From positions 62,001-126,000 of the forward strand of contig CANLQL010000001.1 of the NCBI GenBank assembly GCA_947493265.1: DNA of 64,000 bases. The letters are read 5' to 3'. Each line of letters opens with the position of its first letter. Within the stretch, counting starts at the first letter, position 1. Origin of the DNA: an uncultured Litoreibacter sp. (GTDB taxonomy: Bacteria; Pseudomonadota; Alphaproteobacteria; Rhodobacterales; Rhodobacteraceae). Below the pieces are notes generated by a model. The model saw only the letters and a list, made by a program, of their open reading frames with translations, did not search any database and had not been told where the DNA came from. The translations under genes were made by a program, and so were the position numbers. Positions 48,598-62,994 of the stretch are shown piece after piece.

Positions 48598-48881
48598 TGA
48601 AAAAGCTTCTGTATATCATAGCCTTGTGCAGCATCGGCCAATCCGCTTTCGCGGAGTGCTATGCTGACTATAAGGCAAAGAAAGATGACCCGTTGAAGCT
48701 GCATTACGGCGTGATAGAGTTACCGGACAATGCGTGTCAGTCCCAGCAAACGGCAGCACAGGCGGTTGCACCGCGGCTTGCAGATAACGGCTGGACGCTT
48801 CTGAATGTCGTGGGGGTATTTGACGCGTCAGGCTTGGCGGAAAGGAAGCCCAGTGCCGGAAAATTCTTCCTCCGTTACTAA
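48597..48881 (+). CDS. Small secreted protein of unknown function
   Basis: I do not recognise a family. The 94-residue product has a signal peptide (about 1-19, ending in AFA). The mature part starts ECYADYKAKKDD and has two cysteines (ECYAD and NACQSQ) that could form a disulfide, and ends KPSAGKFFLRY. The start has no Shine-Dalgarno sequence and lies at a hairpin (48578-48597). Its last 29 bases overlap the next gene, which encodes a membrane winged-helix protein, so both probably belong to one unit. Confidence 0.65.
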   Translation: MKKLLYIIALCSIGQSAFAECYADYKAKKDDPLKLHYGVIELPDNACQSQQTAAQAVAPRLADNGWTLLNVVGVFDASGLAERKPSAGKFFLRY

Positions 48882-49554
48882 AGGATGGACCCCTGCCCGG
48901 GTAACTGTCTTTGGCGTCGCGGCAATTGTTCTAATCTTATCCTCAGCAGCGATCGTTCTGTTTGCGAACCTCCCGGATGCCAATGCGTTCAACTTACGGG
49001 TGGAACAGATTTTCATTCAGAACGATGCGCTGACATCGACAAGCGATGTGAAACTGCTGGAAATACTTGCGCAAAGCGGTACGGCGTTTTCGGAAACCCT
49101 TGCCTCTTATAGGTTTATCATCTTTGTTCTTATGGTCTTTGCGACAGCGGTTTTGATCGCGGCTTTGATCGCGCTGGTCTCACTTGTCACAATGACACGC
49201 CGCATCGCACAGATCGAAAAAACCGGCATTCAGGTATCTTCGCTGGTCGTCAATCGCGATCAACGGATCGTTCAGATCAACGACATGGAGTTCAAGCTTA
49301 CCGAAGCCGCGCTAGAGACACTTTCCGTTCTGGCAGAAGCGCGGCTTGATGATGACATCCTGACGGGTCTGGAGATCGAGGCGATGATCTCCGGCAAGCC
49401 AGAGGTCGACTGTGACGAAGCGACGGGTGCCACACGGGTCAAGCGGCTGCGTGATCACCTTGGCAATCAAATGATCAGCGAGTTGTTGATCAAGAACATC
49501 GCCCGCAAAGGCTATGTGCTGGCTGTTGAGCCGGACGCGATCAAAGTGTTCTGA
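48853..49554 (+). CDS. Membrane-anchored winged-helix protein, ToxR-like with reversed domain order
   Basis: A 233-residue protein: membrane segments at about 17-39 and 87-114, a 47-residue loop between them, then a cytoplasmic-looking C-terminal domain (137-226). That domain resembles an OmpR-type winged helix: FKLTEAALETLSVLAEA at its start and the wing-like IARKGYVLAV at its end. ToxR and CadC have this domain at the N-terminus; here it follows the membrane part. I start at the GTG at 48853 because AAAGGA is six bases upstream; an ATG at 48805 lies deep in the upstream gene. Target and signal are unknown. Confidence 0.6.
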   Translation: MPENSSSVTKGWTPARVTVFGVAAIVLILSSAAIVLFANLPDANAFNLRVEQIFIQNDALTSTSDVKLLEILAQSGTAFSETLASYRFIIFVLMVFATAVLIAALIALVSLVTMTRRIAQIEKTGIQVSSLVVNRDQRIVQINDMEFKLTEAALETLSVLAEARLDDDILTGLEIEAMISGKPEVDCDEATGATRVKRLRDHLGNQMISELLIKNIARKGYVLAVEPDAIKVF

Positions 49555-49667: not shown

Positions 49668-50708
49668 TTACTCTGCCAATTCAACAGATTTCTGTTCCGC
49701 TTCGATTAGTCGGCTTAGCTGCTTTCGGAACGTCTTTGCGCCCAGATCCAGCCCCATATCGATGTTCGGTGTCGCCATATCGGCCATACCTTTATGAACC
49801 GCCTCAAGCACGTGCTTGTCTTCATTGAATGCCATTATTGCACCGGCATTCATCTTCTCCGATATCGCCTTGTCATTGGGATCGGTATTGCGATGCTGGA
49901 ACCAGATATACTGGGTATTGTTCTCATCCACCGGGGTCATGAAATTGTAGGAAATGTTGACATAGGTCTTTTCGACTTGCGGCTTGTCGGGCCCGCCTGT
50001 GCCCAAAGGCGTGTAGATAGACTTGTTAAGCGCAATCGCCGGGAAGCACATCTCGTAGTGTTGTAGCCGGTCGCATTTGCCTTCGAATTTCACCAGATCT
50101 TTATAGTATGGCGACGGGTCCTGCCCACTGATCCATCGGGACACCACGACACCGCGATCTGTCTTTTCCACATCTAGCGGTGCGTTGTCCGTTCCGCCCC
50201 CGGCGAAAGACGTTACGTGAACCCAGGCAACGTGGCTGGGGTCGAGAAGATTGTCGCAAACCCAAAGGTAGTTGCATTCGATTGGCAATATGCCACCATC
50301 GGTGTAGCCCCAGTCCGGATTGTCGAAGTTCTCAATCTCAAAAATCTCATCCGGGTTTGCCAAAGCCGGGTCGCCCATCCAGATCCACAAAAGCCGGTAG
50401 CGGTCTACGACCGGGTAGGATCTCACAACAGCGCGACGCGGTGTCATTCCACGCTGCGTTGGGCTGTCGGTGCATTTTCCTGTGCAATCAAAGGTAAGGC
50501 CATGGTAGCCGCAAACCACCGTATCGCCTTCCAGTTGCCCCATCGACAATGGCAATTTTCGGTGCGGACAAGCGTCTTCAAGCGCAACTGGGGTGCCGTC
50601 GATTTGACGGTAGAAGACGACATTTTCACCAAGCAATTTCTGCGATTTGAGGGCGCGGTCGTAATCACGGCTCCATCCGGCGACATACCAGCAATTGCGA
50701 AGATACAT
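49668..50708 (-). CDS. Rieske non-heme iron oxygenase, alpha subunit (VanA-like)
   Basis: A 346-residue oxygenase component of the vanillate O-demethylase/phthalate dioxygenase type. The Rieske ligands are Cys47-x-His49 and Cys66-x2-His69 (CPHRKL, CGYHGL). The mononuclear iron site is Asp156, His159 and His164 in LLDPSHVAWVH. It could demethylate or hydroxylate an aromatic or heterocyclic ring. No ferredoxin-reductase gene is nearby. It lies 101 bases after hutU on the same strand, with a palindrome at 50790-50808 between them, so it may have its own promoter. Confidence 0.83.
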   Translation of the reverse strand: MYLRNCWYVAGWSRDYDRALKSQKLLGENVVFYRQIDGTPVALEDACPHRKLPLSMGQLEGDTVVCGYHGLTFDCTGKCTDSPTQRGMTPRRAVVRSYPVVDRYRLLWIWMGDPALANPDEIFEIENFDNPDWGYTDGGILPIECNYLWVCDNLLDPSHVAWVHVTSFAGGGTDNAPLDVEKTDRGVVVSRWISGQDPSPYYKDLVKFEGKCDRLQHYEMCFPAIALNKSIYTPLGTGGPDKPQVEKTYVNISYNFMTPVDENNTQYIWFQHRNTDPNDKAISEKMNAGAIMAFNEDKHVLEAVHKGMADMATPNIDMGLDLGAKTFRKQLSRLIEAEQKSVELAE

Positions 50709-50789
50709 GTGCGACCCCTCAGTCTCAGCTTTTGAGGCGAAGCTTAGTGCGCGCGCTGTGTGGACGCCATCATTTCGAGATTATTTGTC

Positions 50790-50808
50790 TCATTAGGATG
50801 GCTAATGA
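50790..50808. promoter_or_regulatory. LysR-type box upstream of the Rieske oxygenase gene
   Basis: TCATTAG-GATGG-CTAATGA is a perfect 7-base inverted repeat. Its core ATTAG-N5-CTAAT (50792-50806) has the T-N11-A form of LysR-family sites. It lies 84 bases before the Rieske start codon. The same core with the same spacing recurs at 59627-59641. It directly follows the hutU stop, so a role as an RNA hairpin is the alternative. Confidence 0.55.
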
Positions 50809-50809
50809 T

Positions 50810-52477
50810 TCAATTGCCAAGGATTGTCGGCAAGCGCAGCCCGTTTTCACGCGCGCAGGCCACCGCATCGTCATACCCCGCATCCGCATGCCGCCAAACA
50901 CCAGAGGCGGGATCATTCCAAAGCACGCGTTCCAACCGGGCGGCGGCTTCATCAGTGCCGTCCGCACAAATCACCATGCCAGCATGTTGCGAAAAGCCCA
51001 TACCGACGCCACCCCCGTGATGAAGCGAAACCCATGTCGCGCCGGAAGCGGTATTGATCAGTGCGTTTAATAGTGGCCAGTCCGACACTGCGTCGGAGCC
51101 GTCTCTCATCGCCTCCGTTTCCCGATTGGGGGAAGCGACCGACCCACTATCAAGGTGATCACGGCCAATCACCACCGGGGCGGATAATTCACCGTTCTTG
51201 ACCATTTCGTTGAACGCCAGACCCAACTTGTGACGGACACCAAGACCGACCCAGCAAATGCGCGCGGGCAAGCCCTGAAAGCTGATCCGGTCGCGTGCCA
51301 TATCCAGCCAATTGTGCAGATGCGGGTCATCGACCAGCTCTTTCACTTTGGCGTCTGTTTTGTAGATATCCTCTGGATCACCAGACAAAGCACACCAGCG
51401 AAATGGGCCGATGCCGCGGCAGAAAAGCGGGCGAATGTAAGCTGGCACAAAGCCTGGAAACGCAAACGCGTTCTCAAGCCCTTCTTCCAATGCGACCTGT
51501 CGGATGTTGTTTCCATAGTCCAGCGTCGGGACGCCCATGTTCCAGAAATCCACCATTGCGGACACATGTATTTTCATCGACGCACGTGCAGCTTTTTCGA
51601 CAGCCTTTGGATCGCTTTCGCGTTTCTCACGCCATGTCGCCAAGCACCAACCTTGCGGCAGATATCCGTTGATCGGGTCATGGGCAGAAGTTTGGTCTGT
51701 CACCAAATCTGGCTTGATCCCCCGCTTCACCAGCTCGGGGAAGACATCCGCCGCGTTGCCCAGAAGACCGACGGATTTCGCCTCACCTGCTTTGGTCCAG
51801 CGGTCGATCATCGCCAGCGCTTCGTCCAGCGTTTCCGCTTTCTCATCGACGTATTTCATGCGCAGACGGAAATCGATCGACTCGGGGTTGCATTCAACCG
51901 CAAGGCAGCACGCTCCGGCCATCACTGCCGCCAGAGGTTGCGCGCCACCCATTCCGCCAAGACCACCTGTCAAAATCCATTTGCCGGTGAGATTGCCGTC
52001 ATAGTGCTGACGCCCAGCCTCCACGAATGTCTCATAGGTTCCTTGCACGATCCCTTGACTACCAATGTAGATCCATGACCCCGCCGTCATCTGGCCATAC
52101 ATCGCCAGGCCCTTTTTATCGAGCTCGTTGAAGTGGTCCCAAGTGGCCCAATGCGGCACGAGGTTGGAATTTGCGATCAGAACGCGCGGCGCATCAGAGT
52201 GCGTTCTGACAACCGCCACCGGACGTCCGGATTGCACGATCATGGTCTCATCGGCTTCGAGGTCTTTCAGCGTCGCAACCATTGCATCGAAATCCGACCA
52301 CGTGCGCGCTGCGCGGCCAATACCGCCATAGACCACAAGTTCATGTGGGTTTTCGGCAACGTCAGGATGCAAGTTGTTCATCAGCATCCGCATCGGCGCT
52401 TCGGTCAGCCAACTTTTCGCGTTCAACTCAGGCCCATTTGGGGGGTATACGTCACGGGTGTTCTTACGATCAAACAT
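50810..52477 (-). CDS. hutU: Urocanate hydratase
   Basis: Second step of histidine breakdown: urocanate to imidazolone propionate, using tightly bound NAD as an electrophile. The 555-residue length is normal. Recognisable parts are [32 protein letters not shown] for [19 protein letters not shown] and the final [16 protein letters not shown]. It is the last of the hutI-hutH-hutG-hutU operon, 12 bases after hutG. Confidence 0.96.
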
Positions 52478-52489
52478 ATGTGGCTCCTT

Positions 52490-53284
52490 TCAATCTGCGA
52501 GGACACCGGCACGCGCCAGCTGTTCGAGTTTTTCAAAGATATCTGCGAAGATCGGGCGGATGTTGGCAGCGCGTTCGGGTCGGTACGTCCAAGGCGCGGC
52601 CTCGTCCATATAAGCGCGTTGCGCAGTTTCCATCTGCAGCGCGTGAACTCCGGTTCTGGGCTGGCCATAGCGACGTGTTGTCCACCCACCTTTGAAACGC
52701 GCGTTCGTAACGGTTTCGTCAGGCGGGCAGGCATCGCATGCGGCCTTTTCAACTGCAGGGTGGCAGGTTTGTCCGTTGTTGGTGCCGATGTTGAAAACTG
52801 GCAACAATCCTTCGAACAGAAACGGGACATGTGACCGGATAGAGTGGCAATCATAAAGGATCGCGACACCGTGGATTGCCTTGACCCGTGCCAGCTCCTC
52901 GGCAATTGCTGCGTGATACGGCGCGTGAAACTTGTTCCGGCGCGATATGATTTCATCTTCCGACGGCATTTGCCCATCCTGCCAGATTTCGAACCCGTCA
53001 AAATCGGTTGTCGGGCAAAGCGCCGTCGTGTTTTGCCCCGGATAGAGCGAGATGCCCGCAGGATCGCGATTGGCGTCGATCACATAACGATGAATATTCG
53101 ATCGGATAACAGTGCTGCTAGGTGCGAGACCGTCGTACAGTCGGTCAATATGCCAATCGGTATCGGCCAGCTGTTGTCCCCGCGCATTCAACCGATCGCT
53201 CAGTCCATCCGGAAGAAAGGTCCCTCCATGCGGTTGAGCCAGCACCAAGGGGCTATCGCCGCGCTGAACCTCAAAGACATTCAT
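52490..53284 (-). CDS. hutG: N-formylglutamate deformylase
   Basis: Last step of the five-step route: N-formylglutamate to glutamate and formate. The 264-residue protein has the family pattern PHGGTFLP near the start, then [20 protein letters not shown], and [13 protein letters not shown], which hold the likely metal and catalytic His, Asp and Arg residues. Together with hutF it shows that formimidoylglutamate is first deaminated. It overlaps hutH by four bases. Confidence 0.92.
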
Positions 53285-54819
53285 GTGTCTAGATCCGGCA
53301 TGGCGATACTTGGTGCGTCCACAACATCGCCATTTGCCACCAAACCTGCTGCAGCGGTGATATCCGGGGAAAGGTAGCGATCATCACCGAGTGTCGCCAC
53401 ATCCGCGCGCAGCCGTTTGAGCACTGCCTGCAAAGGTGCGCTTGTTGTCAGAGGCGCACGAAATTCTATGCCTTGTGCCGCGCACAACAGCTCCACACCG
53501 ATGATGTAGTGCAGATTTGCGATCATCTTCTTCAGACGCACCGCACCATGGGCCGCCATTGAAACATGATCTTCCTGATTGGCGGAGGTCGGCGTGGAGT
53601 CCGTCACACACGGGTTTGCCAGATGTTTGTTTTCACTCATCAAGGCAGCGGTCGTGACCTCAGCAATCATCAACCCGGAATTAAGACCGGGATCAGGTGT
53701 CAGGAAGGGCGGAAGATCGAACGACAAGGTCGGATCGACCATGAGCGCCACGCGTCTTTGCGCAATCGCGCCGATTTCTGACACCGCCAAAGCAATCATA
53801 TCCGCGGCAAAGCCCACGGGTTCTGCATGGAAATTCCCGCCAGAGACGATCAGTCCCACCTCGCTCAGAACAAGCGGGTTGTCGGTCGCCGCGTTCGCCT
53901 CAATCTCCAGAGTTTGGCCTGCCTGACGCAACACATCCATGGCCGCGCCTGTCACTTGCGGCTGGCAGCGGATGCAATAGGGGTCTTGCACACGGCTGTC
54001 ATCTTCGCGGTGGCTTTCGCGGATTTCCGATCCGTCAAGCAGGGCCCGCATTGTATTTGCGGCCTCGATCTGGCCGCGATGGCCCCGTAGGCTGTGAATT
54101 TCCGGTTGCAGCGGAGCAGTTGATCCCATGATTGCATCTGTGGACATGGCTGAAACCACAAGCGCCGATTGCATCGCGCGCCATGCATCAAACAACCCAA
54201 TCAACGAGAATGCGGTGGAAAACTGCGTTCCGTTGATAAATGCCAGACCTTCCTTCGGACCAAGCGGGATCGGGCTGAGGCCGGCCTTTGAAAGCGCTTC
54301 GGCTCCTGGCATCACGGTGCCTTCAAACTCCGCCTCGCCATGACCGATGATCACAGCCGTCATATGTGCAAGCGGCGCAAGATCGCCTGATGCGCCGACA
54401 GACCCTTGGCTTGGGATCACCGGTGTCACACCTTTGGCCAGCATGTCTTGCAACAGCTCGATCAGTGACCAGCGCACGCCAGACGCGCCACGTCCGAGCG
54501 ATAGAAGTTTCAGCACCATGATCATCCGCGCCTCTGCACGGGTGATCGGTTCCCCAACACCGCAGCAATGGGACAGGATCAAGTTTCGCTGAAGTTTTGC
54601 CGTGTCATTGGCGGCGATCTTCATGCTGGCGAGTTTGCCGAAGCCAGTATTGACGCCGTAAACGGCAGCGTCCCCTTGTGCAGCTTCATTGATCCGCGCG
54701 GCGGCTGCTTCCACCGCGGGTCTGCAGCTGGGGTTCAATACAACAGCAGCCTCAGCGCGATACACCGCTTCAAGCTGGGCGAGGGTCACATCCCCGGGGG
54801 TCAATTCCATCGCGGTCAT
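53281..54819 (-). CDS. hutH: Histidine ammonia-lyase
   Basis: First step: L-histidine to trans-urocanate and ammonia. The 512-residue protein makes the MIO cofactor from Ala143-Ser144-Gly145 ([12 protein letters not shown]). The Tyr of VYGVNTGFG and the [11 protein letters not shown] block (read here as VQDPYCIRC) are also present. GGAGG is six bases before the first ATG (54819), which I prefer over the ATG three codons on. It overlaps hutI and hutG by four bases on either side. Confidence 0.96.
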
Positions 54820-56021
54820 ACTGCACCTCCGTAGATGCGCTGATACAGGGGGTTGAAGCCAATGCGGTAAGCCAGCTCTGCCGGGGTGTTGATGTCCCAG
54901 ACCGCCAGATCAGCGCGTTGTCCCGCGGCAATTGTGCCACGATCAGGCAGGCCCAAGGCGCGGGCGGCATTGCGGGTCACACCGGCCAAAGCCTCTTCCG
55001 GGGTTAAGCGAAACAGCGTTGATCCCATGTTCATCGCCAGCAGAAGGGATGTCAGCGGCGATGACCCCGGATTAGCGTCGGTCGCCAAAGCCATCGCGAC
55101 ACCGTGCTTCCGAAACACTTCAATTGGTGGGCTTTGCGTTTCGCGCAGCGTGTAAAACGCGCCGGGTAAAATCACGGCAGCGGTCCCGGCCTTGGCCATT
55201 GCCTTTACGCCATCTACGTCAAGATATTCGACATGATCGGCTGAAAGGGCATCAAACCCCGCAGCCATTTTCGCGCCACCAAGGTTGGATAATTGTTCAG
55301 CATGAATCTTGACCGGAAGACCCAATTCCTTCGCGACGGTAAAGACCCGTGCGACCTGCGCTGGCTGAAAAGCAATTCCTTCGCAAAACGCATCGACTGC
55401 ATTGACCAGCCCTTCGGCGTGGGCCGCGCGCAAAGTTGGGATGCAGACCTCATCGATGTATCGATCAGCCTCACCCGCAAATTCTTCCGGTATTGCGTGA
55501 GCACCTAGAAAGGAGGTCTGAATCTGAACCGGGCGCAGCTGGGACAGACGACGCGCCGCACGCAACATGCGCAGTTCTGTTTCATGATCCAGGCCATAGC
55601 CGGATTTGATCTCAAGCGTGGTCACACCTTCCGCGATCAGGGCGTCGAGGCGGGGTAAGGCCGATGCAACCAAATCATCTAGCGACGCAGACCGCGTCGC
55701 CGCAACGGTTGAAACGATGCCGCCCCCTGCGCGCGCCACATCCTCGTAGCTTGCCCCATTGAGGCGCATTTCAAACTCTTTGGCGCGATCACCGCCGAAA
55801 ACCAAATGCGTGTGACAGTCAATCAACCCTGGCGTCACCAATCGCCCACCAAGATCAACAGGCATGGCGTCAACGAAGTCAGCCGGGAGGGAGCTGATTT
55901 CACCGACCCACGCGATGTGCTCCCCTTTGACAACGATCGCGTCATCGTCGCCCAAACCATATGCCGCCCCGCCCGATTTCATCGTGGCAATGCGGCAGTT
56001 TTGAAAGAGCGTCAGAGTCAC
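54816..56021 (-). CDS. hutI: Imidazolonepropionase
   Basis: Third step: opens imidazolone propionate to N-formimidoylglutamate. The 401-residue amidohydrolase has the metal pair His70 and His72 ([14 protein letters not shown]), the [12 protein letters not shown] segment, HAEQLSN and [10 protein letters not shown] with the second-shell Asp. The start is GTG at 56021 with GAGG eight bases upstream. It is the first gene of the leftward operon, divergent from hutF over 85 bases. Confidence 0.94.
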
Positions 56022-56075
56022 GACAGCCTCATCGGGGGAGTTTTATCTTGCGAGGTAGATTGTATGGTCTTAACA

Positions 56076-56097
56076 TTATTATGTCCAATCATAATAA
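56076..56097. promoter_or_regulatory. Inverted repeat in the hutI-hutF divergent region
   Basis: TTATTATG (56076-56083) and CATAATAA (56090-56097) form a perfect 8-base inverted repeat with a 6-base centre. It ends nine bases before the hutF start and lies 55 bases from the hutI start, so one bound regulator could control both. It differs from the palindromes at 50790 and 59627. Confidence 0.5.
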
Positions 56098-56106
56098 GGT
56101 ACGGAC

Positions 56107-57465
56107 ATGAGAATTTTTTCGAAACGCGCGCTGCTGCCAAGCGGTTGGGAAACCAACGTTGCAGTGCATGTGGACGCCGGGGCAATCGCCGATATCGAAG
56201 CCGGAGCTGCCCGGTCTTCTGACGATATCGCGGTAGACACGTTGATGCCTGCCCTGTCGAACCTGCACAGCCATGCGTTTCAGCGGGCCATGGCGGGGAT
56301 GACAGAATACCGTGCGAAAGGACGGGAGAGCTTCTGGACCTGGCGCGATCTGATGTATCGCTATCTGGATCAACTGACACCCAAGCATATGACCGCCATC
56401 GCCGAACTGGCTTTCATGGAAATGCTAGAGGCCGGATATTCCGCAGTAGGTGAGTTTCACTATGTCCATCATGCGCCCGGTGGGCAGGTCTACAACGATA
56501 TCGCAGAACTTTCCGCCTGTGTGATGCAGGCCGCCGCGCAGACCGGGATCGGTATCACGCACCTCCCGGTGCTTTACACGTATGGAGGGGTCGACAGGCG
56601 CGATCTTGAAGGTGGCCAGCTGCGGTTCGGCAATTCAACAGATCGCTTTTTGGCCCTGTTGGATCGTTGCCGGGATATTGCGTCCGACATGGCTCCAGAC
56701 ACGAATGTTGGCATTGCGCCGCATTCCCTTCGCGCAACTTCCCCCACCGATCTTTCCACGGTCCTGAATGCGGTGCCCAAAGGCCCTGTCCATATCCATA
56801 TCGCCGAGCAAACTCGTGAAGTGGACGAGGTTCAATCAACCCTGGGCGCACGGCCTGTTGAATGGCTTCTGGACAACGCAGATGTGTCGGACCGTTGGTG
56901 CCTGATCCACGCCACCCATATGACAGCATCCGAGTGCGAGGCGATGGCAAGAAGCGGCGCGATTGCTGGCCTGTGCCCGGTGACAGAAGCCAATCTAGGC
57001 GATGGAGTATTTCCCGGTAAAAGTTTTCTGGATGCAGAAGGTGCCTTTGGCGTCGGCACAGATTCGAATATCAACATTTCAGTAGCCGAAGAGTTGCGAA
57101 CCCTCGAATATTCACAGCGCTTGACCCACCGAGAACGCAATGTATTGGCTGCTGAGGCGGGTTCCACTGGATCGGCACTTTACATGGGCGCTGCAGCGGG
57201 CGGTGCGAAAGCGCTTAGCCGCAAAACAGGTCAGATTACGTCCGGCTTTCTGGCTGACTTTGTTGCAATTGACAGCACGCATCCAACGCTCTGCATGTTA
57301 GACGACCATCAGCTTCTGGATGGATTTGTTTTTGCGAGCCGAGATTCTGTTGTAACTGATGTCTGGTCGGCGGGTCGTCACATGGTAAAGGACGGGCAGC
57401 ACATTGCACGTGACAGGATTCGCGAACGTTACAGGCAGGTGCTGGCGGATTTGAAAGCTCACTAA
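56107..57465 (+). CDS. hutF: Formimidoylglutamate deiminase
   Basis: Fourth step: N-formimidoylglutamate to N-formylglutamate and ammonia. The 452-residue amidohydrolase has its metal pair His54 and His56 in NLHSHAFQRAM, IHIAEQTREV, LIHATHMT and GTDSNI with the catalytic Asp. HutF with HutG is the Pseudomonas-type route. AAGG precedes the ATG. A LysR regulator gene follows after 14 bases on the same strand. Confidence 0.94.
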   Translation: MRIFSKRALLPSGWETNVAVHVDAGAIADIEAGAARSSDDIAVDTLMPALSNLHSHAFQRAMAGMTEYRAKGRESFWTWRDLMYRYLDQLTPKHMTAIAELAFMEMLEAGYSAVGEFHYVHHAPGGQVYNDIAELSACVMQAAAQTGIGITHLPVLYTYGGVDRRDLEGGQLRFGNSTDRFLALLDRCRDIASDMAPDTNVGIAPHSLRATSPTDLSTVLNAVPKGPVHIHIAEQTREVDEVQSTLGARPVEWLLDNADVSDRWCLIHATHMTASECEAMARSGAIAGLCPVTEANLGDGVFPGKSFLDAEGAFGVGTDSNINISVAEELRTLEYSQRLTHRERNVLAAEAGSTGSALYMGAAAGGAKALSRKTGQITSGFLADFVAIDSTHPTLCMLDDHQLLDGFVFASRDSVVTDVWSAGRHMVKDGQHIARDRIRERYRQVLADLKAH

Positions 57466-57479
57466 GGTAGTTTGGTTCG

Positions 57480-58385
57480 ATGTTGAAAACCCTTCCCTAC
57501 GCGGCGCTACGAACACTGGAAGCCGTGGTGCGGTTGCGTGGATTTGGCAGGGCAGCCGAAGAGCTTAACGTCACCCAAAGTGCAGTAAGCCAGCATGTCA
57601 AATCACTGGAAGAATGGCTTGGACACAAGCTGTTGCATCGCCATCGCCCTCAGATTGAACCAACGGAAACAGGTGCGCGTCTGGCAGATGCGGTCCGGTC
57701 CGGCTTTGGCATGGTTGAAAGTCTGTGCGACGATCTTCGTGTTGCACCGATGAAGCGCGCGCCCGGCCTACGCATCGCAGCTCCACCGGGTTTTGCATAT
57801 CTTTGGCTTCTGCCACGTTTGTTGCAGTTTGATGAATTACATCCAAACACCCCAGTGTCCCTATCCACCAATCCAGACTCTCTTGATCTCAGGATCAGCG
57901 ATGCAGATGCGATGATCTGTTATAGCACGGGCGGATTCCCGGACATGCACGCAGAACGCTTGTTGTCTGAGACGCTTGCGCCGGTTTGCACGCCCGAGAT
58001 TGCGAACACGCTAAAAACCCCCGCCGATCTGGCCGCCCATGTTATCCTTGAAGACGTCCATGCCGTGCAAACCCAACAGTCAAATTGGGATGTCTGGGCA
58101 AAAGAAGTTGGCATCAAGCTGCCGCATTTCAAACGAAAAAGACGGTTCGGGCAGGCCAATCTGGTCGTTCAGGCGGCGGTTGATGGTTTGGGCATCGCAA
58201 TGGGACGCAGCCCGCTTGTTCAAGGACTTATGGACGAGGGCAAACTTGTGTATCCATTCCCTGAAGCGGCGGCGTCCCAGTTTGACTATTGGTTTGTCTG
58301 CAAACATAACGCTTTGGAAGGCCGGTCGGTCAAAGCCTTTCGGAATTGGCTGCGAGATGCCGGCGCGCGGGCGAATGCGGGATAA
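57480..58385 (+). CDS. LysR family transcriptional regulator
   Basis: A 301-residue LysR regulator of the GcvA-like type: winged helix at residues 1-60 (FGRAAEELNVTQSAVSQHVKSLE) and a periplasmic-binding-like effector domain from about 90. It starts 14 bases after hutF, so it is probably co-transcribed with it and may sense a histidine-pathway compound. It is also the nearest candidate to bind the T-N11-A boxes at 50792-50806 and 59627-59641. Effector and target are inference. Confidence 0.85.
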   Translation: MLKTLPYAALRTLEAVVRLRGFGRAAEELNVTQSAVSQHVKSLEEWLGHKLLHRHRPQIEPTETGARLADAVRSGFGMVESLCDDLRVAPMKRAPGLRIAAPPGFAYLWLLPRLLQFDELHPNTPVSLSTNPDSLDLRISDADAMICYSTGGFPDMHAERLLSETLAPVCTPEIANTLKTPADLAAHVILEDVHAVQTQQSNWDVWAKEVGIKLPHFKRKRRFGQANLVVQAAVDGLGIAMGRSPLVQGLMDEGKLVYPFPEAAASQFDYWFVCKHNALEGRSVKAFRNWLRDAGARANAG

Positions 58386-58426
58386 ATCGGTGGCGACGCC
58401 GAACGGCGGGCTGGGTATCGCCTGAT

Positions 58427-59539
58427 CTAGATGTAGCTAAGTTGATTGTCCTGCCCCAAGCCCACCGCGCGGCTTGGCGCATCAAAGAGCGCGCGCATCT
58501 CTGGAACGGAATCCAGAAGCGCAGTGCCTCCTGCGATTAGGTCCGGGTTGAAGTAGCCATCCCGCCAGACAGCGACACCATCCAACCGGACAGTCGGATC
58601 CAACACATTCAGCGAAATTTCACCGGGTGGATAAGCCCCACATGTGTGGAAATGCAAAAGGCGCGGATTGCCGAATGCGCCGCCGCCCCAACGTTCAAAA
58701 TGGGACGATGCAGGCTGTGGGTAATGGCAACCCGGATGGATACCGATATGCCAGGAATGCACGAAGAACGTATTTATATTGAACATGTTTCCCACGAACT
58801 CATAGTGCGCGCGGGCGGTGGCAACATCTTTTGGAATGCCTTCAAAACCGACAATTTCATTGTCATCGAAATCGACAAAAAGCGTGTCGTTTAATTCGCA
58901 CGTGTAGGGGTCGTAGTAGTTTGACCCACAACCGGTCAGAAACCCATTTTGCGCAATCCTGCCTTTAAAGTTTCGGGAAGGTATTGGCGCAAAAATCGAG
59001 ACCGGGAAGCGTTTGCGTGTCACGTCACCCGTCGTCTCCAATGGGTCAAGCAGTTGGCCACGGAAATCAGTACCTGCGGGACAGGTTACATGCACGTCAT
59101 GCGCGGTTGAAAACGCATCATTGACCAACTGCTTGAGCCGATCAAACGCGGTATAGGACACGGTTCCGAACGGGGAGCTCAGCATCTCTTGATCCAGGGC
59201 ATAGCTGATGATCTGTCGCATGGATGCATCTTTGGTCCGAAAACGGATTTGATCCCCCAGACGGGCAAAAAAGACCGTACAGTCGACTGCAGCCATCCGC
59301 GCGACGAGATCAGCATCGGGGTCCATGACGGTGCGCTGAAAAGGGACGCCGTAGGTTTCAGCTTTCAAACCCAGTTCTTCGGCAGCAAACAAAACGGATT
59401 GCGCGAGGGATGGATCGTAATATCCGTCCTCCTCAGTTTCGAAAACAATGAGAAGCGTGTCGCCAGCGCGGCACGTGCCGCAGTCAAACAAGAGATTGCG
59501 CACGGCCTTTTTCAAACCACCGTGGGTATCGTCCAACAC
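58427..59539 (-). CDS. M29/NicX-like metalloprotein
   Basis: A 370-residue protein of the M29 aminopeptidase/NicX fold, a group that holds leucyl aminopeptidase T and 2,5-dihydroxypyridine 5,6-dioxygenase (NicX/PicD). GSNYYDPYTCELNDTLFVDF, then WHIGIHPGC and HFHTCGAYPPGE hold Glu and His residues that may bind metal; which are true ligands cannot be told. A ring-cleaving role fits the amidohydrolase and Rieske oxygenase nearby, but a peptidase is possible. It is divergent from the HutC-like gene over 177 bases with two palindromes. Confidence 0.65.
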   Translation of the reverse strand: MLDDTHGGLKKAVRNLLFDCGTCRAGDTLLIVFETEEDGYYDPSLAQSVLFAAEELGLKAETYGVPFQRTVMDPDADLVARMAAVDCTVFFARLGDQIRFRTKDASMRQIISYALDQEMLSSPFGTVSYTAFDRLKQLVNDAFSTAHDVHVTCPAGTDFRGQLLDPLETTGDVTRKRFPVSIFAPIPSRNFKGRIAQNGFLTGCGSNYYDPYTCELNDTLFVDFDDNEIVGFEGIPKDVATARAHYEFVGNMFNINTFFVHSWHIGIHPGCHYPQPASSHFERWGGGAFGNPRLLHFHTCGAYPPGEISLNVLDPTVRLDGVAVWRDGYFNPDLIAGGTALLDSVPEMRALFDAPSRAVGLGQDNQLSYI

Positions 59540-59626
59540 ACCCGTTCCCCTTTGTGTTTCCCCAAGCTTGTCGTGACCCTAGGCCTATGGATCAGGAGGC
59601 ACCATTTTCGGGTGATAATAGAGCCT

Positions 59627-59641
59627 ATTAGGGAAACTAAT
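59627..59641. promoter_or_regulatory. LysR-type box upstream of the NicX-like gene
   Basis: ATTAG-GGAAA-CTAAT, with T-N11-A symmetry, lies 88 bases before the NicX-like start codon. Half-sites and spacing are identical to 50792-50806, which lies 84 bases before the Rieske gene. Confidence 0.55.
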
Positions 59642-59656
59642 GCTGAATGGTGGCCA

Positions 59657-59674
59657 TTGTCTGCGCGCAGACAA
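59657..59674. promoter_or_regulatory. Perfect 18-base palindrome, candidate GntR-family operator
   Basis: TTGTCTGCGCGCAGACAA is a perfect palindrome, 43 bases before the start of the HutC-like regulator gene and in the divergent region shared with the NicX-like gene. It is a likely site for that regulator. I did not see a copy in the hutI-hutF region. Confidence 0.55.
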
Positions 59675-59716
59675 ATGCTAGAATAAATATAGACATAAGA
59701 AAAAGGCAGCAGGCAT

Positions 59717-60406
59717 TTGCGCAGCAGTTATCAAGACATCAAAGCAGACGTCCTGAACCGTATTCGGCAAAATATTTGGCCGCCCGGTGCAAACCTACCC
59801 GGTGAGATTGAGCTCGCTGAAGAGTTCGGTTGTGCCCGTGCGACGGTTAATCGCGCGATGCGTGAGTTGGTCGACGAAGGCATTCTGGAACGCAAACGCA
59901 AAGCCGGGACACGGGTCAAATCCTTCCCGACCCGAAAAGCTCGATTTACAATCCCTCTGATCCGAGAAGAGATCGAAAGCACCGGCGCAGCGTATCGATA
60001 TGCGCTCGTCGACCGGGAGGTTATTGCCGTCCCGGGCTGGCTTAGTGCGCAGGTCAAAATACCCAGAAACGGCCAGGTTCTACACCTCAGATGCATGCAC
60101 TTCGCCTCGAACAAACCCTACCAATTGGAAGATCGCTGGATCAATCTGACGGCGATTCCAAAGGCAGAAAAGCAAGATTTTGAGGTGATCGGCCCAAACG
60201 AATGGCTTGTCCGAGAAGTTCCTTTTTCGGAAGCGGACCTCTCTTTTTCAGCCACAAGTGCAACCCAGGAGATCGCGGATTTTCTGGACCAGAAAGAAGG
60301 TGATGCGGTTTTCACGGCCGAACGCACAACGTGGCTGGATGAAGACAACATTACCCACGCGCGGCTATACTTTTCACAAGGCTACAAGATGACAACGAAG
60401 TTGTAG
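59717..60406 (+). CDS. GntR family regulator of the HutC/UTRA type
   Basis: A 229-residue regulator: GntR winged helix at residues 1-70 (LAEEFGCARATVNRAMRELVDE) and a UTRA effector domain from about 85. QLEDRWINLTAIP and PNEWLVREVPFSEADL resemble HutC, the urocanate-sensing hut repressor. But it is not next to the hut genes; it lies between the NicX-like and amidohydrolase genes. It may therefore control them instead. The start is TTG (59717); no ATG fits the helix-turn-helix. Confidence 0.75.
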   Translation: MRSSYQDIKADVLNRIRQNIWPPGANLPGEIELAEEFGCARATVNRAMRELVDEGILERKRKAGTRVKSFPTRKARFTIPLIREEIESTGAAYRYALVDREVIAVPGWLSAQVKIPRNGQVLHLRCMHFASNKPYQLEDRWINLTAIPKAEKQDFEVIGPNEWLVREVPFSEADLSFSATSATQEIADFLDQKEGDAVFTAERTTWLDEDNITHARLYFSQGYKMTTKL

Positions 60407-60431
60407 TCAGGTGATACACGTTACCACATAA

Positions 60432-61472
60432 CTAGCGCTGCTTTGCATCATGCGCGATTTGCTTTTGACGAAGCCCCTCCAACCGTTCAAATAAATCCGC
60501 CGCGGTTTTCCAAGTCACCTGTGCCTTTTCTTCGTCGGTCAGGTCAGACGGAACAACCGCGTGAGAATAAGGATCGTCCTTGAAGATCGGATAGTCAGAG
60601 CCAAGCATGATGCGGTCTGCGCCAAAAAGTTTAACCGCTGACTCTAGTGCACGCGGTCCCAGCGATGCGCTATCATACCAAAGCCTGCGCAAGCGGTCCG
60701 TTGGAAACGGTTCTTCGGGATTTCGGTGCCGAGCGATGCTTTCGATCCGCTCGAAAATGAATGGCAGCGTGCCACCAAGATTGACCACCTGAAAACTGAC
60801 ATTCGGGTAGGTATCCAGCATATCCGACAAGATCACCGTCAGGGCCACTTGGCTCGCGCTTGATTGCAGATCAACTGCGGACAATCGGTATTGCATGAAA
60901 TCTGCCTGCCTGGGCGGCGGTTCTTGTCCAACTTTCAGACCGGGATGTAGCATGATGTGGCAGCCATATTCGTTCGCCGCCGAAAGAAGGGGGCGCAACG
61001 TGTCAGCTTCAGCCAGTGAATTGAAATAGTTTGACGGAAGGATGATCCCGGGCAGACCTAGATCACGCCGGATGCGCCGCAGCTCGGCACATGCCAGGTC
61101 AAGATCGTCAAGCGGCACGCCCGCCAATCCGATCAGAACGCCATTGGTTTGCGCGTTCAGTTTTTCCAGATGATCATTGTACGATGTGATCGCATCCGCA
61201 ATTTCATCCGCAGGCAATAGGTCCACACCCAAAGCCCCCGGAAATGTGATCAACCGATGTGTTAAGCCTTGAATGCGCATTTCAGCCAGTCCAACGGCAG
61301 GATCGTGGTAGTGATCGGTGAAAGGAAACTCACCATTCATTGCAACCATCACGGTCACGCCATCCTCCCGCTCACGAAGATAGGGCCGCTTGGTTCGGGC
61401 CTTCAAAGTATCAACCAACCCGCCGCCGTAGAAATGGGAGTGCATGTCGACGCGACTCTTGTCAGAAATCAT
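60432..61472 (-). CDS. Amidohydrolase (ACMSD/PicC-like)
   Basis: A 346-residue metal-dependent amidohydrolase of the amidohydrolase_2 group, which holds non-oxidative decarboxylases such as ACMSD, gamma-resorcylate decarboxylase and PicC. His11 and His13 (MHSHFYGG) start the TIM barrel; further ligands are likely in MLHPGLKV (near residue 174) and GSDYPIFKDD (near 294). With the NicX-like gene it recalls the PicC-PicD pair in pyridine-carboxylate breakdown, which is a hypothesis. AAGGA lies nine bases before the ATG. Confidence 0.75.
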   Translation of the reverse strand: MISDKSRVDMHSHFYGGGLVDTLKARTKRPYLREREDGVTVMVAMNGEFPFTDHYHDPAVGLAEMRIQGLTHRLITFPGALGVDLLPADEIADAITSYNDHLEKLNAQTNGVLIGLAGVPLDDLDLACAELRRIRRDLGLPGIILPSNYFNSLAEADTLRPLLSAANEYGCHIMLHPGLKVGQEPPPRQADFMQYRLSAVDLQSSASQVALTVILSDMLDTYPNVSFQVVNLGGTLPFIFERIESIARHRNPEEPFPTDRLRRLWYDSASLGPRALESAVKLFGADRIMLGSDYPIFKDDPYSHAVVPSDLTDEEKAQVTWKTAADLFERLEGLRQKQIAHDAKQR

Positions 61473-61953: not shown

Positions 61954-62994
61954 TTGAGCGACCGCCAGTCCCAAGATAGCCGCCACAATCTGACATTGCG
62001 CGATGTTTCCGAAGCCTCTGGCGTCAGCGAAATGACTGTTAGCCGGGTGCTGCGTAACCGTGGTGAGGTGTCTGATCGCACGCGCGCCAAAGTGCTGGAA
62101 GCCGCAAGACAGCTTGGCTATGTCCCAAACAAAATTGCCGGGGCGCTTGCGTCAAACAGGGTCAACCTGGTCGGCGTGATCATACCATCACTATCAAACA
62201 TGGTTTTCCCGGAAGTGATGATGGGTATCTCAAAAGTTCTGGATGATACACCGCTGCAACCCGTTGTCGGGGTCACTGAATACCAGCCGGAAAAAGAAGA
62301 AGAAGTCATCTTTGAAATGCTGTCTTGGCGACCGTCTGGTCTGATCGTCGCCGGCCTGGAACATACGCCGGCTGCAGTCGCGATGATGAAAAATTCCGGT
62401 GTTCCAATCGTAGAGATTATGGATGTTGATGGCGACGCAATTGATGCCTGTGTCGGGATTTCGCACACGCGCGCTGGACGCGAAACAGCGACAGAAATTT
62501 TGAAGCGCGGGTATCGAAATATCGGATTTCTCGGCACGAAAATGCCGTTAGACCACCGGGCGCGAAAACGGTTTGAGGGCTTTCGCGCAGTCTTGCAGGA
62601 ATCTGGTGTATCACTGAAAGCTGAGGAATATTATTCCGGCGGCTCCGCTTTGAAAAAGGGTCGCGAAATGACTCGATCAATCCTCGCGGACAATAAGGAC
62701 TTGGATTTTCTATATTATTCCAATGACATGATCGGTGCTGGCGGTTTGCTCTATTGCATCGAGGAAGGTCTGGAAGTCCCCGGGAAAATGGGACTTGCGG
62801 GATTCAATGGGGTTGAGTTGATCGAAGGTCTTCCCATTCGTCTTGCGACACTCGACAGTTGCCGCACCGAGATCGGGAAGGCTGCGGCGCAAATAATCGC
62901 TGATGATATTGTCGGGGACGGATCGTCTGGGCAAAACCAGCGTATTGAACTGGAGCCTGTGTTTAATCCGGGCGACACGGTCCGTGCGAACTAG
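61954..62994 (+). CDS. LacI family regulator, GntR (gluconate)-like
   Basis: A 346-residue LacI-type repressor: helix-turn-helix at about 15-40 (TLRDVSEASGVSEMTVSRVL), the hinge PNKIAGALAS, then a sugar-binding core. IPSLSNMVFPEVMMGI, EMLSWRPSGLIVAGLEHTP and GVPIVEIMDVDGD follow E. coli GntR closely, so gluconate or a related sugar acid is the likely effector. The only workable start is TTG at 61954. No gluconate genes are in the window; its targets are elsewhere. Confidence 0.83.
   Translation: MSDRQSQDSRHNLTLRDVSEASGVSEMTVSRVLRNRGEVSDRTRAKVLEAARQLGYVPNKIAGALASNRVNLVGVIIPSLSNMVFPEVMMGISKVLDDTPLQPVVGVTEYQPEKEEEVIFEMLSWRPSGLIVAGLEHTPAAVAMMKNSGVPIVEIMDVDGDAIDACVGISHTRAGRETATEILKRGYRNIGFLGTKMPLDHRARKRFEGFRAVLQESGVSLKAEEYYSGGSALKKGREMTRSILADNKDLDFLYYSNDMIGAGGLLYCIEEGLEVPGKMGLAGFNGVELIEGLPIRLATLDSCRTEIGKAAAQIIADDIVGDGSSGQNQRIELEPVFNPGDTVRAN

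Follow-up and report, generated by a model that had tools for sequence, protein, structure and literature searches.

A stretch of 64,000 nucleotides from an uncultured Litoreibacter sp. (bases 62001 to 126000 of contig 1, hereafter the window) carries a set of histidine utilisation (hut) genes together with two further minus-strand genes, one encoding a Rieske non-heme iron oxygenase and the other a protein of the NicX superfamily. Each of these two genes is preceded by a copy of the inverted repeat ATTAG-N5-CTAAT, and a LysR-type regulator is encoded between them. As judged from sequence, this regulator probably activates the Rieske and NicX-like genes in concert. The elements concerned are listed with the evidence for each.

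49668 to 50708, minus strand: Rieske non-heme iron oxygenase of the VanA type (Pfam, PDB matches, alignment)
50767 to 50806, minus strand: extended element (40 bases) of the Rieske promoter, ATTAG-N5-CTAAT-N7-ATWAT-N9-ATGG (alignment and genome scan)
50792 to 50806, no strand given: LysR box (first inverted repeat, IR1) of the Rieske promoter (exact match, genome-wide search, cross-locus box test)
57480 to 58385, plus strand: LysR-type regulator, putatively of the GcvA subfamily, which would activate both promoters (Pfam HTH_1 and LysR_substrate)
58427 to 59539, minus strand: NicX-superfamily protein of an unnamed family, with a GTG start (predicted structure, alignments)
59602 to 59641, minus strand: extended 40-base promoter element of the NicX-like gene (alignment and genome scan)
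59627 to 59641, no strand given: LysR box (IR1) of the NicX-like promoter (exact match, genome-wide search, cross-locus box test)

The two exact matches to ATTAG-N5-CTAAT in the window, ATTAGGATGGCTAAT at 50792-50806 and ATTAGGGAAACTAAT at 59627-59641, lie where a preliminary description of this DNA had placed them, and there is no further exact match. The distances of 84 and 88 bases given there also hold, counted between the first base of each box and the position where the minus-strand start codon opens (50708 and 59539, respectively). The first site opens the gap between hutU and the Rieske gene, immediately past the hutU stop (hutU ends at 50810), and the second lies in the gap between the NicX-like gene and hutC, where it is overlapped by an open reading frame of 165 amino acids that was taken as spurious. 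Dinucleotide shuffles of the 64-kb window gave an expectation of 0.02 exact boxes, and two boxes arose in 0 of 100 shuffles. The genome-wide search for ATTAG-N5-CTAAT that the preliminary description had proposed covered the whole genome of 3,521,727 bases in 5 contigs and returned the window's two copies only. With up to one mismatch, 12 places were found (the two exact sites and ten others), compared with 35 for the reversed control pattern. The ten one-mismatch places fall within frames or beside genes outside the module, and none of them makes a convincing further regulon member, both statements being based on mechanical reading frames.

When the two window promoters are aligned at the box, they share the longer design ATTAG-N5-CTAAT-N7-AT[TA]AT-N9-ATGG, which occurs in only these two places in the whole genome even with 3 mismatches allowed, each time in the orientation of the gene that follows. 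The earlier observation of a shared box thus understates the case, as AT[TA]AT and ATGG are also common to both promoters at fixed spacing. The LysR gene reported between the boxes is real by Pfam and NCBIfam scans. Its best NCBIfam model is GcvA (E 1.8e-73), at 247 bits against a cut-off of 288 bits, and its nearest relative in the same genome is 30% identical, so that the genome holds no close competitor regulator. Control by another GcvA paralogue was rejected for this reason.

A species-level genome collection yielded 222 relatives of the NicX-like protein, and loci were fetched for the best 80 of these. In all, 101 loci were reduced to 93 with distinct NicX genes (L044 included); loci L128-L136, L146-L149 and L173-L180 stand outside the 93. 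Gene calls in relatives were mechanical and anchored by tblastn, and the lists of longest open reading frames include shadow frames and serve as a guide only. A locus was counted as LysR-bearing if it held a LysR gene at least 40% identical to that of the window, and a box was scored with at most one mismatch within 250 bases upstream. By these measures, the NicX-like gene is preceded by a box in 41 of the 49 LysR-bearing loci, compared with 2 of the 44 others (Fisher p 1e-15). Rieske promoters were scored in 42 of the 49 and 36 of the 44 loci, the others having no Rieske gene of at least 45% identity or fewer than 100 bases upstream; 20 of 42 were boxed in the presence of the LysR gene compared with 0 of 36 in its absence (Fisher p 4e-7). 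First-order Markov shuffles of the upstream stretches contained a box in 0.35% of cases for LysR-bearing loci and 0.5% for the remainder. After clustering at 70% NicX identity, the NicX box was present in 24 of 29 scorable clusters with LysR and 2 of 22 without, and the Rieske box in 9 of 24 and 0 of 17, respectively. A box also lies at most 120 bases upstream of lysR itself in 37 of the 49 loci, as expected for self-control, and the LysR gene is flanked by a box on either side in two further loci that are not among the 93, namely plasmid regions of Ruegeria conchae and Paracoccus seriniphilus. The NicX side of the regulon is therefore firm, and the Rieske side is narrower and holds in lineages like that of the window (for example L035, L040, L048, L049, L051, several Marivita loci, L106, L108 and L118). 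Genome uniqueness, the cross-locus test and the promoter design together bear out the proposal that a shared LysR-type box joins the Rieske and NicX-like genes in one regulon, and the association of the box with the adjoining LysR gene, with no close paralogue in the genome, identifies the latter as the likely regulator.

Conservation in these promoters extends beyond the box. In the 41 boxed NicX promoters of LysR-bearing loci, counting from the start of the box, conserved positions recur between +21 and +25 and between +32 and +39; bases immediately ahead of the box are conserved mainly because the divergent lysR gene starts there. In the 20 boxed Rieske promoters, a set weighted towards closely related Marivita-type loci, conserved positions lie between +22 and +25 and from +37 to +39, and others are scattered further on. 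The second conserved block is thus centred about 22 bases downstream of the box. According to a passage of PMC5002191, the gcvA-gcvB region of Gammaproteobacteria carries two predicted 15-base inverted repeats, ATTAG-n5-CTAAT, with centres at -65 and -43, of which that at -43 is the less conserved and both of which agree with older footprints. The present system resembles that of GcvA, a LysR-family regulator of Escherichia coli, in the inverted repeat, in the step of about 22 bases to a second site, in having a regulator probably of the GcvA subfamily, and in the box just upstream of lysR in 37 of 49 loci. It differs in its targets, which are a Rieske oxygenase and a NicX-superfamily protein, in a window regulator that scores under the GcvA model cut-off, and in the position of the window lysR gene, which sits behind hutF and does not face its target.

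The boxes, the promoter design and the co-occurrence with lysR are computed, and from them we infer binding, activation and start sites along the lines of GcvA. One LysR dimer would bind the strong repeat ATTAG-N5-CTAAT (IR1), predicted to lie at about -65, at each promoter, and a second dimer would occupy the weaker IR2, some 22 bases further downstream at about -43. The inducer-bound pair of dimers would then contact RNA polymerase and activate transcription, as in GcvA. By GcvA geometry, transcription is predicted to start near 50734 for the Rieske gene and near 59569 for the NicX-like gene, 26 and 30 bases before the respective start codons. In most relatives, where IR1 lies just upstream of lysR, its occupation would also repress lysR. 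Comparison across loci supports this mechanism well. The regulon is judged to be real and of a known kind, that of a GcvA-type LysR, and would control one known enzyme type and one unnamed family. For the full reading of a GcvA-type LysR regulon with two promoters serving the Rieske and NicX-superfamily genes, including the proposal that their products act in sequence on one substrate, we estimate a probability of roughly 70%.

Several observations weigh against this reading. The loci are related, so the 49 and the 44 are not independent, and with clusters at 60% identity the counts with and without LysR fall to 8 of 12 and 0 of 11 for the NicX box and to 2 of 10 and 0 of 10 for the Rieske box. 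Within LysR-bearing loci, 22 of 42 Rieske promoters lack a box at up to one mismatch, some having a sequence resembling TTTAG-N5-CTAAA and others nothing clear. Boxes are also found at L027 and L116 with no such LysR gene in the locus, the match at L027 lying only 16 bases from the start codon and that at L116 being a one-mismatch box upstream of the NicX-like gene (L116:9854-9868). L178, outside the 93, has an exact box (L178:9492-9506) and neither LysR nor Rieske within 19.9 kb; in L116 and L178, a LysR of this type may lie elsewhere in the genome. The 44 of 93 loci without this LysR, many of them from Ruegeria and Leisingera, mostly retain the pair, which indicates that this LysR is not needed for the pathway. 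The sole genome of the same genus that was sampled has neither the NicX-like gene nor hutU, and the placement of lysR directly after hutF is found in only 2 of 9 loci with both genes. Finally, none of the transporter genes that accompany the pair in relatives was found in the window between 47001 and 63000; the best match in the same genome to SBP18, one of their amino-acid-type binding proteins, is 28% identical, SBP3, the other, not having been sought genome-wide.

The remainder of the region comprises the hut genes, their repressor and operator, and an amidohydrolase.

50810 to 52477, minus strand: hutU, urocanate hydratase (TIGR01228)
52490 to 53284, minus strand: hutG, N-formylglutamate deformylase (TIGR02017)
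53281 to 54819, minus strand: hutH, histidine ammonia-lyase (TIGR01225)
54816 to 56021, minus strand: hutI, imidazolonepropionase (a reading frame, named from its place in the hut set and general appearance)
56079 to 56094, no strand given: HutC-type operator TTATG-N6-CATAA in the hutI-hutF gap (kept in relatives; overlaps a two-mismatch match to the LysR pattern at 56075)
56107 to 57465, plus strand: hutF, formimidoylglutamate deiminase (TIGR02022, over cut-off)
59717 to 60406, plus strand: HutC repressor, divergent from the NicX-like gene (TIGR02018, over cut-off)
60432 to 61472, minus strand: Amidohydrolase-2 protein (Amdh2) related to ACMSD-type decarboxylases (Pfam Amidohydro_2, PDB)

For the amidohydrolase and the hut genes, membership of the regulon is not supported. 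In LysR-bearing loci, a box was found upstream of Amdh2 in 0 of 18 cases, and the amidohydrolase, which the preliminary description had linked with the pair, was rejected as a regulon member. The same test gave 0 of 9 for hutF, 0 of 7 for hutI, 0 of 7 for hutH and 0 of 6 for hutG (hutU did not form part of it), and the hut genes were likewise rejected as direct LysR targets, the near match at 56075 overlapping the HutC-type operator. Other neighbours in LysR-bearing loci showed no box (SBP18 0 of 27, MocD-like 0 of 22, creatininase 0 of 17, GST 0 of 13 and XRE-cupin 0 of 10), and occasional boxes were found upstream of SBP3 (1 of 12), peroxidase-related (2 of 18) and HutC (3 of 13) genes; in the window, the HutC gene and the NicX-like gene share one gap.

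The hutI-hutF gap carries TTATGTCCAATCATAA at 56079-56094, and the same TTATG-N6-CATAA repeat is present in the hutI-hutF gap of L037, L042, L048, L050, L055 and L057. Because it is kept in these six other loci, the repeat is read as the putative operator of HutC. HutC orthologues have been described in alphaproteobacteria, according to a passage of PMC5343134. No operator of this type with up to one mismatch was found upstream of the window Rieske or NicX-like gene. Like the established histidine utilisation system with HutC, the window has hutIHGU, hutF and hutC; unlike it, the window has the Rieske/NicX-like pair as an addition, with a separate operator and regulator. The hut genes would be under HutC. 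The Rieske gene starts 101 bases past hutU on the same strand, and its read-through from the hut operon is possible.

Two side observations concern the edges of this region. A frame of 249 amino acids at 48805-49554 adjoins the Rieske gene on the other strand and has no Pfam match, and its C-terminal part resembles, by eye, a winged-helix domain behind membrane segments. At 61954-62994 lies a LacI-family regulator that is closest to gluconate-type GntR models, under cut-off.

The protein encoded at 49668-50708 possesses Rieske and VanA_C domains, and its best PDB matches are 7qwt and dicamba demethylase (DdmC, E 4.4e-39). Residues C47, H49, C66 and H69, together with H159, H164 and D297, are invariant in 18 of 18 aligned rows; the first four we take to be the CxH...CxxH Rieske motif and the last three the 2-His-1-carboxylate iron site. 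The protein shares its two domains with dicamba demethylase and VanA-type Rieske monooxygenases, but no reductase gene was identified here, and the MocE-like ferredoxin gene found in 26 of the 93 loci is not present in the window. The amidohydrolase at 60432-61472 has PDB matches to ACMSD of up to E 1.9e-23.

The protein encoded at 58427-59539 has no NCBIfam match (this member searched) and no Pfam match (the family searched as well), and the family returned no PDB match by single sequence and no meaningful one by profile. A single-sequence scan of genome contigs gave 58 stretches, none of them a relative, and all 12 plasmid records with a relative annotate it as 'hypothetical protein'. Its predicted structure (pLDDT 91.2) has 7cn3 and 7cup as top Foldseek hits, followed by M29-type aminopeptidases. 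The fold is shared with NicX, the 2,5-dihydroxypyridine 5,6-dioxygenase of 7cn3 (Foldseek E 2.8e-16, TM 0.57-0.60), but the identity is 15% and three of the iron ligands are replaced in the family. A passage of PMC7910607 gives the NicX iron ligands as His265, Ser302, His318 and Asp320. An alignment of 20 of 24 family matches (leaving out L021/L044, with an internal stop, and L023-L025, which are distant) has Ser at the His265 position in 20 of 20 members, Glu in 19 and Asp in 1 at the His318 position, and Ser in 16, Cys in 3 and Ala in 1 at the Asp320 position. The corresponding residues of the window protein are Ser262, Glu307 and Ser309 under both alignment settings; at the Ser302 position, the two settings disagree between Gly290 and Ala288. 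Profile comparison ties the family to five loose relatives (99.8% probability), in which the last two ligand positions are still His and Asp and the first is Glu in three and His in two; when two loose relatives were searched against the PDB, one matched NicX (E 1.3e-4) and the other (L145) did not. The term 'NicX-like' is therefore apt for the fold, as predicted, and not for the enzyme, and orthology to NicX was rejected because three iron ligands fail. H264, H296 and H298 are invariant in the family and E307 is nearly so, and these four residues could form a rearranged or different metal site.

The NicX-like gene is present in 23 of 198 genomes of the same family and, with distant relatives counted, in 18 of 385 genomes of the class. 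In the 93 loci, its most frequent neighbours are the Rieske gene (at least 45% identity; 78 loci), a peroxidase-related gene (54), this LysR (49), the amino-acid-type binding proteins SBP3 (49) and SBP18 (31) and a creatininase-family gene (43), followed by a MocD-like desaturase (24), the amidohydrolase (21), HutC (18), at least two hut genes (17) and Sox-like genes (6); these counts use identity thresholds and refer to the stretch of DNA examined at each locus. Within the window's own genome, matches to the MocD-like and SBP18 proteins of the relatives are distant (32% and 28% identity at best), and those to the Sox-like alpha subunit, at up to 38%, are indistinguishable from ordinary members of the sarcosine oxidase family. 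A further comparison took in 12 regions: eight further regions, three of four annotated plasmid regions, and L067. Plasmid regions of Ruegeria conchae, Paracoccus seriniphilus and Alisedimentitalea scapharcae are annotated with a sarcosine-oxidase delta subunit and alpha- and beta-type neighbours, those of R. conchae and P. seriniphilus also with RidA, and those of R. conchae and A. scapharcae with a trimethylamine-methyltransferase-family gene; a Leisingera plasmid region has hut genes in the same stretch. L067, a Ruegeria pomeroyi strain, carries the NicX-like/Rieske pair with peroxidase-related, CMD, creatininase and ABC transporter genes. In three further regions in which no Rieske gene of this kind was found, a frame resembling 2-oxoglutarate oxygenases by eye adjoins the NicX-like gene (L176:11085-12050, L177:8040-8999 and L180:11144-12124), as if one oxygenase had replaced the other.

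The association with hut noted in the preliminary description is not accidental. At least two hut genes lie near the pair in 17 of the 93 loci, the window included, in several arrangements. This is far more than the 1 in 100 genomes or so in which, by a rough estimate, chance would put a gene at such a distance from hut. The same holds for 2 of the eight further regions, of which one belongs to a probable SAR116 genome. Among family genomes, hutU is present in 20 of 23 with the NicX-like gene compared with 83 of 175 without it (p 2.9e-4, on the assumption, with handles agreeing, that both counts refer to the same 198 genomes). In a chosen set of 44 carrier genomes (44 of the 80 loci), 41 have hutU and the three without it are drafts, among them Planktotalea frisia, which has both boxes. 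Because these three carriers lack hutU, the pair appears to be tied to hut yet not dependent on it. The tie would be accounted for if both routes ended in a common product, glutamate for instance, or if the substrate were derived from histidine. A single-contig genome of 2,753,527 bases (L173), a probable SAR116 member whose size would fit that of the isolate Puniceispirillum marinum, has hutC, hutF, hutI, hutH, hutU, the NicX-like gene, a peroxidase-related gene and an amino-acid ABC transporter adjoining one another. In L052 (9977-15081), the NicX-like gene, hutH, the Rieske gene and hutG stand in a row on one strand with no hutU or hutI beside them, and hutU lies elsewhere in that genome. 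HutC-like genes persist beside the pair in L049, L053, L085, L091, L093 and L107, where the stretch examined has no other hut gene except hutF in L053 and L085. Hut and the pair may also be joined by way of lysR, if HutC controls that gene. In the window, only 14 bases separate the hutF stop from the start of lysR (57465-57480) on the same strand, downstream of the HutC-type operator, and the order hutF-lysR recurs in L048 with a gap of 23 bases. Co-transcription of hutF and lysR would place lysR under HutC and thereby bring the pair indirectly under HutC as well, in a HutC-to-LysR cascade. As a side observation, lower-scoring extra hutU paralogues occur in three family genomes (G101:C1:4192236-4197160, G114:C145 and G040:C4) and could be thiourocanate-type hydratases.

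From this computed neighbourhood we infer an order of reactions and a class of substrate. The Rieske enzyme would hydroxylate or demethylate the substrate first, the NicX-superfamily enzyme would then act on the Rieske product, probably opening a ring, and the carbon would probably end as glutamate, where it would meet histidine breakdown. The substrate, as a guess, is most likely an imported amino-acid-like N-heterocycle or an N-methylated heterocycle, a class favoured because the neighbours in relatives include amino-acid-type ABC transporters, Sox-like genes, creatininase- or AspA-like hydrolases and hut genes. The ring-oxidation route for an N-heterocycle suggested in the preliminary description is not established, given a NicX fold with three iron ligands replaced. 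Tentatively, and against the odds as we see them, the family of 58427-59539 might be a new kind of metal enzyme on the NicX/M29 scaffold (H264, H296, H298 and E307) that acts with the Rieske enzyme in the oxidative ring-opening of a histidine-derived or N-methylated heterocycle to glutamate, beside or instead of HutU and HutI, under the HutC-to-LysR cascade. Among the matches listed, a literature search for a Rieske/NicX/hut gene set surfaced none.

As a single named substrate, homarine (N-methylpicolinate) is the best candidate, doubtful as it is, and histidine-derived compounds come next. The pair would then belong to a homarine catabolic set or a close variant, in which oxidation of the ring by the Rieske enzyme is followed by ring opening through the NicX-superfamily enzyme, which would give an N-formyl-type product. 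A deformylase would then free formate, and demethylation of N-methylglutamate would give glutamate. R. pomeroyi and SAR116 presumably have the homarine operon, and the NicX-like gene is carried both by R. pomeroyi (L067, with the pair) and by the probable SAR116 genome (L173). Passages of the literature state that homarine catabolism involves N-methylglutamate dehydrogenase, or Mgd (PMC13390433, with reference to a 2026 article in Nature Microbiology), that R. pomeroyi takes up homarine quickly (PMC12817926) and that NicX cleavage yields an N-formyl product (PMC7910607). On a picolinate ring, we would expect such cleavage to give the skeleton of glutamate. The Sox-like genes of 6 loci and the Sox-type genes annotated in three plasmid regions also favour this reading, but Sox-like genes stand beside the pair in few loci, and the window is without most of the accessory genes. 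The homarine operon of Ferrer-Gonzalez et al. 2026 is reportedly present also in SAR11, whereas none of the 18 class genomes with a NicX-like match is under 2 Mb, the 385 holding an unspecified number of SAR11 genomes.

A histidine-derived substrate (N-methylhistidine, hercynine, a compound of the ergothioneine or ovothiol type, or urocanate) could instead feed hut, or bypass HutU and HutI by oxidation of the imidazole ring. This possibility, also unlikely, draws on the hut genes in 17 loci and two further regions, the enrichment of hutU in carriers, the row in L052, the HutC-like genes that persist in six loci otherwise without hut or with hutF only, the position of lysR directly after hutF in the window and L048, and the Sox- and trimethylamine-methyltransferase-family genes annotated in some regions. 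It is weakened by the three draft carriers without hutU, P. frisia with its two boxes among them, by the hutU gene elsewhere in the L052 genome and by the lack of a box upstream of hutF, hutI, hutH or hutG. Considerably less probable is the pyridine route of the preliminary description, in which picolinate or nicotinate would be hydroxylated by the Rieske enzyme, decarboxylated by Amdh2 and cleaved as 2,5-dihydroxypyridine by NicX. In its favour, some known picolinate pathways employ a NicX homologue together with an Amdh2 decarboxylase, the best fold match is NicX, and Amdh2 resembles ACMSD; however, His265, His318 and Asp320 are replaced in the 20 aligned members, and Amdh2 is present in only 21 of 93 loci, without a box. 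It is very improbable that another regulator reads the boxes or that the Rieske gene is a mere tail gene of the hut operon: although the Rieske gene lies close behind hutU on the same strand, this type of box is general for GcvA-like regulators according to a passage of PMC5002191, and L178 and L116 are boxed with no such LysR in the locus, the box goes with the adjoining LysR gene, the nearest paralogue is only 30% identical and no place in the genome other than the two promoters has the 40-base design.

The proposed pairing of the Rieske and NicX-like genes ties a protein family that has 222 relatives in the species-level collection, yet matches nothing in Pfam, to a testable regulon, a likely inducer-sensing regulator and a partner oxygenase, which together give a short path to the substrate of the NicX-superfamily protein. 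It also makes the GcvA-type two-site promoter traceable in numerous alphaproteobacterial genera. The repeated association with hut, which includes a probable SAR116 genome, suggests an unrecognised route from a nitrogen compound to glutamate in marine bacteria.

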